A stretch of 64,000 nucleotides of DNA, taken from NCBI GenBank assembly GCA_003134855.1, contig PLCS01000010.1, positions 124,001-188,000 of the forward strand, written 5' to 3'. Below the pieces are notes generated by a model. That model ran no database searches. It was not told where the DNA came from and saw nothing but the letters and a program-made list of their open reading frames with translations. Every line of letters begins with the position of its first letter. Position 1 is the first letter of the stretch. Source of the stretch: Acidobacteriaceae bacterium (GTDB taxonomy: Bacteria; Acidobacteriota; Terriglobia; Terriglobales; Acidobacteriaceae). A program made the translations under genes and the position numbers. This document shows, piece by piece, positions 5,614-50,219 of the stretch.

Positions 5614-5656
5614 TGGGTGGCCCAGGTCTGGATTTTCAGACCTGGGAAACCACGAG
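5614..5656 (+). repeat. Palindromic repeat family D copy
   Basis: gggtggcccaggtctggattttcagacctgggaaaccacgagcc; arms CCCAGGTCT/AGACCTGGG. Confidence 0.85.
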
Positions 5657-5674
5657 CCAATGGCGCGCAGCGCG

Positions 5675-5726
5675 GCTGCCGCACCGCAGGTGCCGCGCAG
5701 CGCGGCTGCCCCACCGCAGGTGGCGC
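5675..5726 (+). repeat. Palindromic repeat family C, two tandem copies
   Basis: cgcagcgcggctgccgcaccgcaggtg + cgcagcgcggctgccccaccgcaggtgg. Confidence 0.8.
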
Positions 5727-16256: not shown

Positions 16257-16259
16257 TGA

Positions 16260-16313
16260 CAGCTTCTAGCCACTAGCTCCTAGCTAGAAGCTAGAGGCTA
16301 GCAGCTAGCAAAC
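16260..16313. repeat. Low-complexity AGCTTCTAGC-type intergenic hairpin repeat
   Basis: cagcttctagccactagctcctagctagaagctagaggctagcagctagc; 7-9 nt units, self-complementary. Confidence 0.7.
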
Positions 16314-18260: not shown

Positions 18261-18992
18261 ATGCCAGAATCGACGCTTCTCATCGGCATCGACACCTGCG
18301 GCCCCTCGGGTTCGGTGGCGCTAGGGCGCTGGGACGGCCAGGCCGTTGAGATTCTTGGACAAATTGAGCTGGAAGGGCGCAGCTACTCCTCTACTTTGGT
18401 TGCGGCTGTCGGCGAGTTGCTCGGACGAACCAGTATGCAACTTGGTCTGCTCGATGCAATCGTGGCCGTCAACGGTCCCGGCAGCTTCACCGGCGTGCGC
18501 GTGGGCTTGAGCGCCGTGAAGGGTCTCGCCGAGGCGGCGCGGATTCCGGTAATCGCCGTTTCGCGGCTGGAGGTGCTGGCGGCGAAGGTCGGGGCCCCCA
18601 GCGGCAGGTCTTCGTCGCTGGGGTGGCAAGCTGGCGTGGAATCGGCGGCTCTCGATGCGCATCGCCACGAGGTCTACTTGCGGCTGGGTGTGCGTGGTGA
18701 GCAGGGAAGGGAACTGCTGGCCGGTGCGCATGAGCTTGCGGCCATTGAAGCTATGCCCCCCCGGATCGCCATCTGCGACGAGGCGGCCGCCCTGCTGCTG
18801 GCTTCGGCTTGGCCGCAGGCAGAACTGATCCGCACCGCCGCGCCCACCGCCGCCGACGCGCTTCAGCTCTGCGCGCCGCGCGTCGCCGCCGGCGTGTTCG
18901 TCGATCTCGCGCTGCTGGACGGCCATTACCTGCGCCGCTCGGATGCGGAGATATTTGGCGAGCCGGCTGCGGCGGAGCCGCAACGCCCATGA
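18261..18992 (+). CDS. tsaB: tRNA threonylcarbamoyladenosine biosynthesis protein TsaB
   Basis: IDTCGPSGSVALG, VAVNGPGSFTGVRVGLSAVKGLAEA, AALDAHRHEVYL; carries a 12-codon family B repeat. Confidence 0.92.
   Translation: MPESTLLIGIDTCGPSGSVALGRWDGQAVEILGQIELEGRSYSSTLVAAVGELLGRTSMQLGLLDAIVAVNGPGSFTGVRVGLSAVKGLAEAARIPVIAVSRLEVLAAKVGAPSGRSSSLGWQAGVESAALDAHRHEVYLRLGVRGEQGRELLAGAHELAAIEAMPPRIAICDEAAALLLASAWPQAELIRTAAPTAADALQLCAPRVAAGVFVDLALLDGHYLRRSDAEIFGEPAAAEPQRP
18591..18626 (+). repeat. 36-bp palindromic repeat family B, in-frame within tsaB
   Basis: ggggcccccagcggcaggtcttcgtcgctggggtgg = GAPSGRSSSLGW. Confidence 0.88.
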
Positions 18993-28568: not shown

Positions 28569-28784
28569 ATTGTTCCTTTCTCCGCTTCGCTGCTTGCCGT
28601 ACAGCCAATCCGCCGGCCAAGCTGGCTTTTCCCTGTCGCCTTGTGGAGTGCATTCGCGGGGCCAAACGCCCATACCCCTTCAATGCTCTGAAAACAAGCG
28701 CCTTGCGGCCCAACCTCCGGCGGCTTTCGCGCGCGCCGACCGTGTACTTTTTACGCGAACCGGTAAGGAATGCTTGACGCAAGA

Positions 28785-28864
28785 GAGCTTCTAGCCTTTA
28801 GCTTCTAGCCATTAGCTTTCTCAAGCGGAAGGCTAGAGGCTAGAAGCTAGGAGCTGGAAGCTGT
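28785..28864. repeat. AGCTTCTAGC-type intergenic hairpin repeat
   Basis: gagcttctagcctttagcttctagccattagctttctcaagcggaaggctagaggctagaagctaggagctggaagctg. Confidence 0.75.
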
Positions 28865-28899: not shown

Positions 28900-30939
28900 A
28901 TGGACCTCTACGAGAAAATCCGTATCCTGCCAACGCAGCCCGGCGTCTACCTCTACAAGAACGCCGAGGGTACGGTGATCTATGTGGGCAAGGCCAAAAA
29001 CCTGCGCGCGCGCGTTCGCTCTTACCTGCTGGAGTCCTCGCAGGCCGACGCCAAGACCGGCTCGCTGATGCGCGAGGCCGTTGATCTGGAATACATTCTG
29101 GTCGGCAACGAGTCCGAGGCGCTGGCCCTAGAAACCAACCTCATCAAGGAGCGCAAGCCGCGCTTCAACATTCTGCTTAAGGACGACAAGAGCTATCCCT
29201 ACGTCAAGCTGACCATGCGCGATCGCTTTCCCAAGGTCTTCGTCACGCGGCGGCTGTTGAAGGACGGCGCGGCCTACTACGGCCCTTACTTTCCCAGCAA
29301 CCTGGCCTGGCGGGTCGTCGAGTTGATCCATCGCAGCTTTCTGATTCCCAGTTGCAAGGTCGATCTCTCCCGCTACCACCAGCGCGCCTGCCTGCAGTAC
29401 TACATTCATCGCTGCCTCGGCCCCTGCGTCGAAGCCCTCACCACGCCGGAGACGTACGCCAGCGCGGTGCGCGACGCGCAACTGCTGCTCGAAGGCCGCC
29501 ACGCCGAGCTGGAGCGCGCCCTCACCGCGCGCATGATGGAGGCGGCCCAGGCCGAGCGCTTCGAGGCCGCCGCCAAGCTACGCGACCAACTCTCCACCGT
29601 TCACCAGCTCCAGGAAAAGCAGCGCGCCGCCACCGCCGGGCAGGACGACGACGCCGATGTTTTCGGCTACCACTTCGAGGACGGTTCGCTGGCCGTGAAT
29701 CTTTTCCACGTGCGCGCCGGCAAGATCGTCGACCGCCGCGAGTTCTTCTGGGAGGATTTGCCGGAGCTGCTGGAAGCCGCCGCGCCGGAAGAATCCAACC
29801 CGCCCCAAACGATGGGTGCACAAACGATGGGTGGCCCAGGTCCCGATTCTTGGACCTGGGAAACGACAAAGCCAGAGCCGCCGTTCCACGCCGGTCAGGT
29901 CTTCTCCGCCCTCCTCAAGCAGCTCTACATCGACCAGCGGTACGTCCCGCGCTCGATCCTCGTCCCCACGGACTTCGACGACCGCGAGGCACTGGCCGCG
30001 CTGCTCAGCGAGCGCACCGGCCATCGCATCGAGATCGCCGTTCCCCAGCGCGGAGAAAAACGCTCGCTCGTCGATCTCGCCGGCCAGAACGCCAAGCAGT
30101 CATACATTCAGCGCTTCCGCGTGCTGGAGCCTTCGCGCAAGGCCATTCAGGAGGCGCTGGCCGAGGCGCTCATGCTCGCCGAGTTGCCCCGCCGCATCGA
30201 GTGCTTCGACATCTCCCACATCCAAGGCGCGGAGACCGTGGCCTCGCTGGTCGTCTGGGAAGACGGCCAGATGAACAAGCAGGCCTATCGCAAATTCAAG
30301 GTGAAGACCGTCGCCGGCGTGGACGACTTCGCCTCCATGCGCGAGGTGGTCCAGCGCCGCTATCGCCGCCTGCTCGAGAACACCAAGGGCAATGCCGCTT
30401 TGAAAGGGCACGACTTCAGTCGTGCCGAAAATGCCCCAATAACGCCGCAGGCTCTAGCCCCTGAGGGACGAACCTCTAGGAGCAAAGAACCTTCAACAAT
30501 GCCTTCCCTGATCCTGGTCGATGGCGGTCTGGGCCAGCTTCACGCCGCCGCCGAAGCCCTCGAATCTCTCGGCCTCACCACACAACCGCTGGCGTCGATT
30601 GCGAAAAAGGAGGAAGTCATCTACCTCTACGGCAACGAAGAGGAGCCTATCGTCCTCGACCGCCATTCGCCGGTGCTGCATCTGGTCCAGCTTATCCGCG
30701 ACGAGAGCCACCGCTTCGCCGTCGGCTACCATCGCCAGCGCCGCGCCATGCGCGACCGCGACTCGGAGCTATTGAACATTCCCGGCGTCGGCCCGCAAAC
30801 AAGACAGCGCCTTCTCACTCACTTCGGCAGCCTCCGCGACGTACAGCAAGCTACCGCCGAGTCGCTCGCTGCCGTAGTCCCCCCAAAAACAGCCGAATCC
30901 ATCTGGCGGTATTTTCATGCCGTCCGACTCACAAACTGA
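28900..30939 (+). CDS. uvrC: Excinuclease ABC subunit C, with two in-frame repeat insertions
   Basis: QPGVYLYKNAEGTVIYVGKAKNLRARVRSYL, LILVDGGLGQL, PGVGPQTRQRLLTHFGSLRDVQQA. Confidence 0.96.
   Translation: MDLYEKIRILPTQPGVYLYKNAEGTVIYVGKAKNLRARVRSYLLESSQADAKTGSLMREAVDLEYILVGNESEALALETNLIKERKPRFNILLKDDKSYPYVKLTMRDRFPKVFVTRRLLKDGAAYYGPYFPSNLAWRVVELIHRSFLIPSCKVDLSRYHQRACLQYYIHRCLGPCVEALTTPETYASAVRDAQLLLEGRHAELERALTARMMEAAQAERFEAAAKLRDQLSTVHQLQEKQRAATAGQDDDADVFGYHFEDGSLAVNLFHVRAGKIVDRREFFWEDLPELLEAAAPEESNPPQTMGAQTMGGPGPDSWTWETTKPEPPFHAGQVFSALLKQLYIDQRYVPRSILVPTDFDDREALAALLSERTGHRIEIAVPQRGEKRSLVDLAGQNAKQSYIQRFRVLEPSRKAIQEALAEALMLAELPRRIECFDISHIQGAETVASLVVWEDGQMNKQAYRKFKVKTVAGVDDFASMREVVQRRYRRLLENTKGNAALKGHDFSRAENAPITPQALAPEGRTSRSKEPSTMPSLILVDGGLGQLHAAAEALESLGLTTQPLASIAKKEEVIYLYGNEEEPIVLDRHSPVLHLVQLIRDESHRFAVGYHRQRRAMRDRDSELLNIPGVGPQTRQRLLTHFGSLRDVQQATAESLAAVVPPKTAESIWRYFHAVRLTN
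29829..29864 (+). repeat. Palindromic repeat family D copy inside uvrC
   Basis: gggtggcccaggtcccgattcttggacctgggaaac. Confidence 0.82.
30399..30469 (+). repeat. Palindromic repeat family A copy inside uvrC
   Basis: ttgaaagggcacgacttcagtcgtgccgaaaatgcc...gctctagcccctgaggga; encodes LKGHDFSRAENAPITPQALAPEG. Confidence 0.9.
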
Positions 30940-31082: not shown

Positions 31083-32060
31083 GTGAATTTCAATTCGCTT
31101 TCCCCAGGCGAGCAGGTGGAGATTTCACTCCAACCGGAGTGGCTTCGGCGGCTTGATGCATGGCGCGGCCTTCTTGCCCGATGCACACTCAAGCCAAGCC
31201 GGAAGAACGTCCATGCTTTGCGCAGCCAAACGCTGCGCCTGCGTGTGGCGCTCCAGCAAAGGTTGCAGGAGCAGGGCGCGGATTGCGCCGCCGCGGATGC
31301 GTTCCTGCGTTGGAATAAGGAGGGAAAGAGGCTGCGGAGAGTGCTCGAACCGGTTCGCGACGCGGACGTTTACATGGTCCGGCTCAGCAGCCTTCGCAGT
31401 CGCCTGCAAGGGACAGAGGACGGTGCAACGCAACCGAATCCACGCTGCCTGCGCGAAATCAGCCAACTGGAAGGCCGGCTGAAGCGGCAACGCCAGCGTG
31501 GAATCGGCGAGTTGGTGGCCGTCATTGAGGATCGCGGCAAGCGGTTGAACCGGTCAAGCAAAGAGCTGGAAACGGCATTGACGCCTCACATGCCCATATG
31601 GGTGCATTCGACTGCCCCAGAGGCTTTGCGGATATTTGCAGAACTGACCGGCGAACTTCCCAACCTCAACGCCGGCAACTTGCATGAATATCGCAAGCGC
31701 CTCAAGCAAGCGCGATATCTGGCAGAGAGCTCTGCCACGGCAGATCCTCTGGCCAAGCGGTTGGCCGCCGCATTCAGGAGGATTCACTACGCCGCCGGCG
31801 AGTGGCACGACTGGCAGGAGCTCGCCAGGAAGACTAACCGCATTCTTCCCGGCCATGGCAAACAAGACGGCCTGCTTCGCGTGCTGGAGGCTCTGGCGGA
31901 GAAGGCTCTGCATCGGGCACTCGGCCAATGCCGGCGCTGCACAGCACGCCTCCTGAAGAATGGCGGAGAGACTCGGCCGCTCCCGCCGCGAAAACCCGTA
32001 GTTTCCGAGACTGGTTTACAATTTGACAGCGAATCCCACAAAGTGAGAATCAGCCGCTGA
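31083..32060 (+). CDS. CHAD domain-containing protein
   Basis: KNVHALRSQTLRLRVALQ..., LVRDADVYMVRL-like EPVRDADVYMVRL, LHEYRKRLKQARYLAE, YAAGEWHDWQELA. Confidence 0.85.
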   Translation: MNFNSLSPGEQVEISLQPEWLRRLDAWRGLLARCTLKPSRKNVHALRSQTLRLRVALQQRLQEQGADCAAADAFLRWNKEGKRLRRVLEPVRDADVYMVRLSSLRSRLQGTEDGATQPNPRCLREISQLEGRLKRQRQRGIGELVAVIEDRGKRLNRSSKELETALTPHMPIWVHSTAPEALRIFAELTGELPNLNAGNLHEYRKRLKQARYLAESSATADPLAKRLAAAFRRIHYAAGEWHDWQELARKTNRILPGHGKQDGLLRVLEALAEKALHRALGQCRRCTARLLKNGGETRPLPPRKPVVSETGLQFDSESHKVRISR

Positions 32061-32074
32061 CCGGGATTCCTCTC

Positions 32075-33064
32075 TTGCCGGCGATGGCCGAATCGCTGGC
32101 CGCTGTTGTGCCCCGCAAAACCGCGGAGATGATCTGGCGGCATTTTCATACAAGCAAAGTGACGCATTCTGTTGCTCAACCAGCCGCTTCATCAAACCTT
32201 CACGTGCAAAAAGCGGTCTCTTGGAAGAAAATAGAGTCACATGGCTTTTCGAGGATTTTCGAGAAGAATCATTCGAACACGATTGAGGAACGGTTGAGCG
32301 GCAGGCAAATAGAAATCAAACAGTGGACCGCCGAGGAGTTTGAGCGGCTGGTTCTCGACGGCAACCCCAGGGTCGCGGTCTTCGATTGCGATGGAACGCT
32401 GTGGGGCGGCGACGCCGGTTATGGCTTCATGGCCTGGTCCATCGAGCAGGGCCTGGTTTCGCGCTCCGCCAGCGTTTGGATGGATACGCGCTACCGCGGC
32501 TACCTGGCCGGGCGTGTAAGCGAAGTGGAGATTTGCGGCGAGATGGTGCAGCTCTACGCGGGGCTGCGCGATGCAGAGTTGCGTTCGGCCGCCGCCCGCT
32601 ATGTGAGCGAGTTTGTGCGGCCGCGCATCTTCGCGGAGATGGCTCAACTGCTGGCCAGGCTCGGCCAGGCCGGCGTCGCGTTGTGGGCCGTCAGCTCCAC
32701 CAACAAGTGGGTGGTCGCCGAGGGCGGACGCGACTTTGGCATTCCCGAAGAGCGCGTGCTGGCCGCCGAGGCGCGCGTCGTGGACGGCCTCATCACCTCC
32801 GAGCTGGTGGACGTACCTACCGGCGCGGCCAAGGCTGTCTCGCTGAAGCGCGTGGGCATCGAGCGCCCAGATGCGGTCTTCGGCAACTCCGTCCATGATC
32901 TGGCGATGCTGGAAATAGCGCGCTGCGCCTATCCGGTCAACCCCTCGCCGGCGCTGATCGAAGCGGCGGCCCGGAACGGCTGGGGCTACTTCCGGCCTGA
33001 GACGGCAGAAGGCGCCGAAGCGACCGTGGCGGGCGAATCATCCCTTTACGAAACCAACCTCTAG
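32075..33064 (+). CDS. HAD-family phosphatase (phosphoserine phosphatase-like); true start probably downstream (e.g. TTG 32294) because the 5' part is uvrC-derived
   Basis: VAVFDCDGTLWGGDAG, WAVSSTNKWVVAEGGRDFGIPEERVLAAE, AVFGNSVHDLAMLEIA. Confidence 0.8.
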   Translation: MPAMAESLAAVVPRKTAEMIWRHFHTSKVTHSVAQPAASSNLHVQKAVSWKKIESHGFSRIFEKNHSNTIEERLSGRQIEIKQWTAEEFERLVLDGNPRVAVFDCDGTLWGGDAGYGFMAWSIEQGLVSRSASVWMDTRYRGYLAGRVSEVEICGEMVQLYAGLRDAELRSAAARYVSEFVRPRIFAEMAQLLARLGQAGVALWAVSSTNKWVVAEGGRDFGIPEERVLAAEARVVDGLITSELVDVPTGAAKAVSLKRVGIERPDAVFGNSVHDLAMLEIARCAYPVNPSPALIEAAARNGWGYFRPETAEGAEATVAGESSLYETNL

Positions 33065-47631: not shown

Positions 47632-47826
47632 GCTTAACCTTTCCGCGAAACTTCGCGCACCGAACACACGCACCAGCTGCCTGCTTCCCCGATACGTCAA
47701 TACACAAACTTAGACCCCAAGATGGATTGGGTGGTTAGGGGAAATTGTACGGCAAACGGACTTGGCGTGTGCCTTCTGGGCGGATGGCGCAGGTTCCCAT
47801 AAGTAAAAATGGGCGCCCCATGTCCA

Positions 47827-47862
47827 GGGGTCCCCACGGACAGGTCTTCGTCCACGGGGTGG
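47827..47862 (+). repeat. 36-bp palindromic repeat family B (inserted in a family D-like repeat)
   Basis: ggggtccccacggacaggtcttcgtccacggggtgg. Confidence 0.88.
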
Positions 47863-47900
47863 AGGTCCGGATTTTCGGACCTGGGAGACCAGGAACCCAA
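47863..47900 (+). repeat. Palindromic repeat family D copy (3' part)
   Basis: aggtccggattttcggacctgggagaccaggaaccc. Confidence 0.75.
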
Positions 47901-47910
47901 ACTCACCGCT

Positions 47911-48034
47911 TTGTATCAAGGCACGACTTCGCCGGGGTCCCCATCGACAGGTCTTCGTCGATGGGGTGGGAGTTCAGTCGTGCCGAAAAGGCAGCCGAAG
48001 ATTGCCTGAGCTTTAGCACCTGAGGGAATGTTGG
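47911..48034 (+). repeat. Palindromic repeat family A copy interrupted by a family B element
   Basis: aaggcacgacttc-[gcc B gag]-ttcagtcgtgccgaaaaggc...gagctttagcacctgagggaatgttgg. Confidence 0.85.
47934..47969 (+). repeat. 36-bp palindromic repeat family B, nested in family A
   Basis: ggggtccccatcgacaggtcttcgtcgatggggtgg; perfect 10-bp stem. Confidence 0.9.
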
Positions 48035-49235: not shown

Positions 49236-50219
49236 ATGCCTATCCAAGCCACATCGAAAATCTGGCACAACGGCAATCTGATTCCCTGGGAGCAGGCCAA
49301 CATCCACGTGATGAGCCATGTGATCCACTACGGCTCCAGCGTTTTTGAAGGCATCCGCGCCTATGGCCAGCCGCACGGCTCGGCTGTCTTCCGTCTCCCG
49401 GAGCACATGCAGCGGCTGCTGGACTCGGCCAAAATCTACCGCATGGAGCTGCCCTTCGACATCGAGGAGCTGTGCGCCGGCGTGGTCGAGCTGATTGAAG
49501 CCAACGGCGTTGCTCCCTGCTATATCCGCCCCATCGCGCTGCGCGGCTACGGCGAGATCGGCGTCAGCCCCAAGGGTTCGCCGGTCGAGGTCTACATCGC
49601 CAACTTCCCCTGGGGCAAGTACATCGCCGGCCATGGCGGCGCGGACGTCTGCGTCTCCAGTTGGAATCGCCTGGCGCCTAACACCATGCCGTCGCTGGCC
49701 AAGGCCGGCGCCAACTACATGAACTCCCAGCTCATCCACATGGAGGCTGAGATCAACGGCTACGCCGAGGGCATCGGGCTGGACGTGAACGGCCTGGTCA
49801 GCGAGGGCTCCGGCGAGAACATCTTCGTCGTCCGCAACGGCGTGATCTATACGCCGCCGCTCTCCAACTCGGCGCTCTCCGGCATCACCCGCGACTCGGT
49901 GCTGACCATCTCCCGGCACCTCGGGCTGACAGTGAAGGAGCGCTCCCTTCCTCGCGAACTGCTTTACATCGCCGACGAGGTATTCTTCACCGGCACGGCC
50001 GCCGAGGTCCAGCCCATCCGCTCCATCGACCGCATCCTCATCGGCGACGGCAAGTCCGGGGTCCCCTGCGACGAGTCTTCGTTGCAGGGGTGGAAGCCGG
50101 GCGAGATCACCAAGAAGATCGCCGACGAATTCTTCGGCATCGCCAACGGCCTCAAGCCCGACCGCTTCGGCTGGCTGACGCCGGTCAAGGTGAACGCCAC
50201 GGAGCCAGTCGGCGCATAG
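49236..50219 (+). CDS. ilvE: Branched-chain amino acid aminotransferase
   Basis: KIWHNGNLIPWEQANIHVMSHVIHYGSSVFEGIRAY, EGSGENIFVVRNG, FFTGTAAEVQPI; carries a 12-codon family B repeat. Confidence 0.96.
   Translation: MPIQATSKIWHNGNLIPWEQANIHVMSHVIHYGSSVFEGIRAYGQPHGSAVFRLPEHMQRLLDSAKIYRMELPFDIEELCAGVVELIEANGVAPCYIRPIALRGYGEIGVSPKGSPVEVYIANFPWGKYIAGHGGADVCVSSWNRLAPNTMPSLAKAGANYMNSQLIHMEAEINGYAEGIGLDVNGLVSEGSGENIFVVRNGVIYTPPLSNSALSGITRDSVLTISRHLGLTVKERSLPRELLYIADEVFFTGTAAEVQPIRSIDRILIGDGKSGVPCDESSLQGWKPGEITKKIADEFFGIANGLKPDRFGWLTPVKVNATEPVGA
50058..50093 (+). repeat. 36-bp palindromic repeat family B, in-frame within ilvE
   Basis: ggggtcccctgcgacgagtcttcgttgcaggggtgg = GVPCDESSLQGW. Confidence 0.88.

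Follow-up and report, generated by a model that had tools for sequence, protein, structure and literature searches.

The window analysed here is a 64,000-nt stretch of an Acidobacteriaceae genome (G000; 3.94 Mb, 17 contigs), which contains a uvrC gene for excinuclease ABC subunit C. The product matches the Pfam domains GIY-YIG, UVR, UvrC_RNaseH, UvrC_RNaseH_dom and HHH, as well as TIGR00194 (529 bits), and its gene carries two unrelated palindromic repeats, which together with the other features of interest are listed in Table 1. It had been predicted that a repeat, called D here, was inserted in-frame in uvrC, and this was borne out: D is a dispersed repeat, the 679-aa reading frame runs intact across the copy, and the encoded peptide is as originally read. 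The hairpin of this copy has a predicted DNA fold of -10.0 kcal/mol (z -2.35) and a 9-bp stem topped by a C-T mismatch, i.e. one stem pair has been lost, while the closest relative (G009) has the same uvrC insertion with a perfect 11-bp stem. The second insertion claimed for the gene was likewise confirmed: its family has three copies in the window and, genome-wide, 38 sites against none for reversed controls. In the AlphaFold prediction of UvrC (mean pLDDT 86.5), only residues 306-325 and 518-526 have a pLDDT below 50; the first of these disordered segments encloses the D copy, and the other is adjoined and partly overlapped by the second insertion (about aa 500-523), which falls in an RNase H domain loop. 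The loop entered by D belongs to the RNase H-like half of UvrC, and the insertion was probably near-neutral there.

Table 1. Position and nature of the repeat-related features in the window
Feature	Position	Strand	Details
uvrC, excinuclease ABC subunit C	28900..30939	+	679 aa, no stop in D copy
D repeat in uvrC	29829..29864	+	exact core match; encodes about GGPGPDSWTWET (aa 310-322)
GTGG tetranucleotide, hairpin foot	29831..29834	+	from sequence
D hairpin in uvrC	29835..29860	+	stem CCCAGGTCC / GGACCTGGG (29835-29843 / 29852-29860), loop 29844-29851
Partial tandem duplication	29806..29833	+	15-nt period, CAAACGATGGGTG at 29806-29818 and 29821-29833
Second, different palindromic repeat in uvrC	30399..30468	+	GGGCACGACTTCAGTCGTGCC family; encodes ALKGHDFSRAENAP...ALAPEG
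Intergenic D copy	5614..5656	+	~90 nt upstream of next gene
Third D copy, damaged	47861..47892	+	5' arm without CCC; 66% identity; adjoins another hairpin repeat

The window contains further repeats. A 63-nt stretch of the uvrC 3' end (30856-30918) recurs ~1.2 kb downstream at 32087-32149 (76% identical), separated from it by an ORF at 31083-32060, and it looks from the sequence as if a gene was inserted at the tail of uvrC with part of the tail duplicated. Inverted and direct repeats (AGCTTCTAGCC / GGCTAGAAGCT) are present at 16258-16306 and 28783-28862, both apparently intergenic. The hairpin repeat GGGGTCCCCATCGACAGGTCTTCGTCGATGGGGTGG is found at 18590-18626, 47826-47862, 47933-47969 and 50057-50093, and has four close members and one weak one.

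D is a repetitive extragenic palindrome (REP)-type element of ~45 nt. The consensus of 93 copies reads TG-GGTG[G/C]-CCCAGGTC-YS-loop-SR-GACCTGGG-AAACCACGAACC, and comprises a GTGG or GTGC foot, a covarying stem of 8-11 bp, a short T-rich loop and the 3' tail. The textbook REP foot is GTAG, and a REP/RAYT system would have either GTAG or GTGG at 0-2 nt on the 5' side of its hairpin. GTAG was never seen in D, which has GGTGG in 32 and GGTGC in 47 of the 93 copies, so that about half carry GTGC rather than GTGG. The two upper stem pairs, which were left free by the search pattern, are T-A or C-G and C-G or G-C, respectively; the first is paired in 89/93 copies (shuffles: mean 68, maximum 76) and the second in 87/93 (shuffles: mean 54, maximum 66). 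These unconstrained pairs covary far above shuffles, as expected when paired changes maintain a REP stem, so the hairpin has been conserved structurally. The CGTC end tag of RPE-4 and RPE-6 is absent from D, with its GGTG[GC] foot and different 3' tail, as are the terminal inverted repeats and target site duplication of MITEs, D being a single hairpin.

Two exact-core copies are present in the window (5616-5646 and 29830-29860; none expected from 100 shuffles), and both the uvrC segment and the intergenic copy that it was said to match fit the core pattern exactly. The intergenic copy has a predicted DNA fold of -13.9 kcal/mol (z -4.89), and the gene following it starts with MFENLTDKLQRAFKSLRGQGTL and may, in our reading, be ffh-like; immediately after the copy there are two 30-nt units in tandem (5661-5720, TGGCGCGCAGCGCGGCTGCCGCACCGCAGG). 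Searches of the whole genome identified 26 exact-core copies, and 92 matches with up to three mismatches (reversed-pattern control 0), and the stretches retrieved around the copies contain 93 unique places with up to four mismatches; D is clearly dispersed beyond the two sites from which it was proposed. When the search was expanded to 61 genomes, D was found in 37/37 genomes of the same genus and in 0/24 genomes that represent other families within the order or class, and the reversed pattern gave no match in any of the 61.

The majority of D copies are intergenic, as in REP/RAYT systems, with only 12 of the 93 places lying in genes. This represents a strong depletion, as ~79 would be expected at an assumed coding density of ~85%. 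The 12 copies are distributed over 11 genes, as judged on ~0.3 Mb of sequence around D copies, with genes called real by codon usage and most confirmed by Pfam. All 12 are in-frame, as in Rickettsia palindromic elements, although ORF-based counting detects in-frame copies only and this is therefore partly built in. Besides uvrC, the genes encode an AddA/UvrD-like helicase-nuclease, RNase R (rnr), Era, RecG, PurF, TatB, a protein with a weak urocanase match, a TPR/FG-GAP protein, a GntP permease and, in our reading of the sequence, a carboxypeptidase-regulatory/TonB-like protein; an ORF at C9:79609 with a borderline score reads like an antisense ORF and was left uncounted. The recG gene of G000 contains a tandem of two D copies 45 nt apart and that of G016 a single one, while most of the 20 other same-genus orthologs aligned by tblastn lack D in this loop; by eye, G008 recG looks to contain a D remnant broken by a nested repeat. 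The era gene contains D in G000 and G010 and a decayed copy in G002, and lacks it in G021. The purF copy (L011, C8:818502 in G000) is located just before CGVI(AIHGH), the start of the mature enzyme, and likely falls in the propeptide.

The flanking near-duplicate in uvrC had been proposed to be a target duplication, but this did not hold up. The duplicated stretch ACGATGGGTG has a 15-nt period, includes GGGTG from D's own conserved 5' foot, and is absent from G009 even though the D insertion is shared. A target site duplication was thus rejected for this copy, and the near-duplicate looks like later local tandem slippage.

We also compared the first UvrC linker in 36 genomes of the genus, where its length varies from 25 to 113 aa; in class-level relatives, e.g. 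Bryobacterales, UvrC linkers are ~10-20 aa. D or decayed D was found in 11/36 genomes, and the other linker repeats include the GHDFSRA/YQGTTSVVP, GAPSxxxxxERVGD hairpin and VILSxxxVEGSAV families and an RDQGSGIRDQG repeat. In the G033 linker, D occurs twice, in different frames, alongside another hairpin, and in G001 and G019 D is broken by a nested PALSLSKG-type repeat. Apparent nested interruptions of D were seen in L089 and L071 (UvrC linker), L157 (G000 C15:47847 protein) and L283 (G008 RecG), with the nested repeats encoding EPALSLSKG, EPALSVPKG or FDKLRAGT. Recognisable repeats are absent from the linkers of G017 and G011 (25 aa), G028 (31 aa) and G034. Several same-genus orthologs aligned without the D segment, giving the site without insert that had been anticipated, and conservation of the segment in all UvrC orthologs is rejected. 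Dispersed repeats matched 19/36 linkers versus 1/180 length-matched UvrC core pieces in a search against other G000 DNA (1e-4), in a database rich in D neighbourhoods which favours D matches. The presence of D requires at least eight state changes on a uvrC core tree (linkers left out), which suggests that the UvrC loop has repeatedly gained and lost REP-type insertions within the genus.

The common strand and frame of the UvrC copies, shared by 12/13 linker-1 D copies (GAPGLDSETWET, one of them in L197), fit ancestry with many losses, peptide constraint and target preference alike. A single ancestral insertion close to the root of the genus, with frequent later deletion and overwriting, would account for this near-uniformity, and the flanks shared by G000 and G009 indicate that at least that insertion was inherited. 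The number of state changes on the core tree argues against it, however, as do the flanks and stem types that differ between clades (CC/GG vs TC/GA) and the two frames in G033, and we regard it as rather unlikely. It is improbable that insertions are directed to the loop as a preferred landing site, for example by a target motif or by single-stranded DNA, or that inserts are retained as useful linkers; a selfish hairpin family would then have come to supply a DNA-repair enzyme with new protein segments throughout the genus.

With regard to function, the inserted peptides could have been selected at this site, with a longer or more flexible loop altering activity or partner binding. The colonisation of the loop in many species by several families is in line with this, as are the shared strand and frame and the use of only three of the five open frames by the genic copies in G000. 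Against it, many species have no recognisable insert, sister species differ freely in repeat families and lengths, the model shows the segment as disordered, unrelated proteins have similar insertions, and the common frame may stem from shared ancestry; selection for the peptides is distinctly improbable. D could also be an RNA element retained for a regulatory role (terminator or mRNA stabiliser), with its location in uvrC incidental, since most copies are intergenic and such roles have been reported for REPs elsewhere (PMC3733652). However, Rfam gave no match to a known RNA family at the D sites, the sequence contains no T-run 3' of the hairpin, and copies occur within ORFs and in both orientations relative to genes; a role as an RNA element is very improbable. 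Chance similarity or an assembly artefact can be dismissed, given the lack of control matches and the presence of D in independent genomes, including the single-contig G002.

Our preferred reading is that D spreads as a mobile REP element, for which the genome contains a candidate mover. G000 has six Y1 transposase matches, one of which (C9:124454-124690, 181 aa) scores 92.1 bits with the REP_Tyr_transpos model NF047646 of NCBIfam (cut-off 80), matches Pfam Y1_Tnp, and has TnpA-REP (4ER8) as its only PDB match. On either side of this RAYT lie oppositely oriented D copies with the GTGG foot, and the last residues of the transposase (DPRSQSRDLGHPFIVVD) are encoded by the downstream copy (L093 4733-5278). 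Inverted D pairs surround related RAYTs in six genomes (G000, G033, G013, G016, G002 and G001), the arrangement of RAYTs between inverted copies of the same repeat, and further RAYTs of the genus are bracketed by different inverted hairpins, several of which have the GGTGC foot. Against this reading stand the frequent GTGC foot noted above and the D-flanked RAYTs, which do not form a single monophyletic clade, with four changes on a weakly supported tree; partner switching or decay may be behind their scatter. Also against it, in G009, which contains many D copies, no close RAYT was detected in an assembly that is 89% complete.

D is probably mobilised by the flanking RAYT. As E. coli TnpA-REP recognises the single-stranded REP hairpin (PMC6006769), the RAYT (TnpA-REP, a Y1/HuH transposase) would recognise the single-stranded D hairpin and mobilise D in trans, and copies landing in genes would survive only where the frame is kept and a surface loop is hit. 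Such survival would be fairly easy, because the unit in tandem pairs (C8:352830/352875 and C14:310496/310541) is 45 nt or 15 codons, and 5/6 reading frames of D are usually free of stops. One copy would have landed in the UvrC loop, where REP-type insertions would come and go repeatedly within the genus. We consider this account as a whole, of a RAYT-mobilised REP element landing in a tolerant UvrC loop, very likely to be correct.

The D system resembles REP/RAYT systems (REPtrons, E. coli REP/TnpA-REP; PMC6006769, PMC3733652) in its short palindrome, whose foot is GT[AG]G-like (GTGG) in part of the copies, in its tens to hundreds of mostly intergenic copies, and in a transposase located between inverted copies, a REPtron layout described previously (PMC3733652). 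It differs in having a GTGG or GTGC foot, in being confined to one Acidobacteriaceae genus among those searched, and in the RAYT C-terminus encoded by a D copy in G000. In-frame REPs in real genes, many of them for DNA repair and replication, have also been described, with GTAG/CGTC REPs in O. terrae uvrA, R. conorii uvrB and Xanthomonas recB, the latter at about the same site in two species (PMC3733652). While both insertions in uvrC are real, their co-occurrence in one repair gene, originally considered striking, has precedent in these in-frame REPs in repair genes (PMC3733652). As in those reports, genes for repair and housekeeping functions carry repeats in-frame, in some cases more than one each; several families in one UvrC loop across 36 genomes sets D apart, and uvrC is not named in the main text of that paper. 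The Rickettsia palindromic elements, as cited in PMC3733652, are likewise in-frame palindromes within real protein genes, but CGTC-tagged families are reported there without a transposase, whereas D has a flanking RAYT. Acidobacteria, including K. versatilis, also contain TIRYTs, Y1 transposases with inverted ends, one of them from a dispersed family (PMC3733652). These share a Y1 transposase between inverted repeats with the D system, from which they would differ in that D forms a complete hairpin and has a GTGG/GTGC foot.

The insertion of REPs in-frame in repair genes is known already (PMC3733652). Measured against the open-licence literature, in which earlier reports were sought, the additions here are a genus-restricted family whose foot is GTGG/GTGC, together with its likely RAYT, and the colonisation of one repair-protein loop by several families across a genus. 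An acidobacterial repeat is thereby linked to a candidate mover, and the linkers provide a natural series, from no insert via one copy to tandem and nested copies, for watching selfish DNA become protein sequence. In acidobacterial housekeeping proteins (UvrC, Era, RecG, RNase R, PurF, TatB), odd segments of 20-60 aa often derive from repeats, a point to heed in annotation and alignment.
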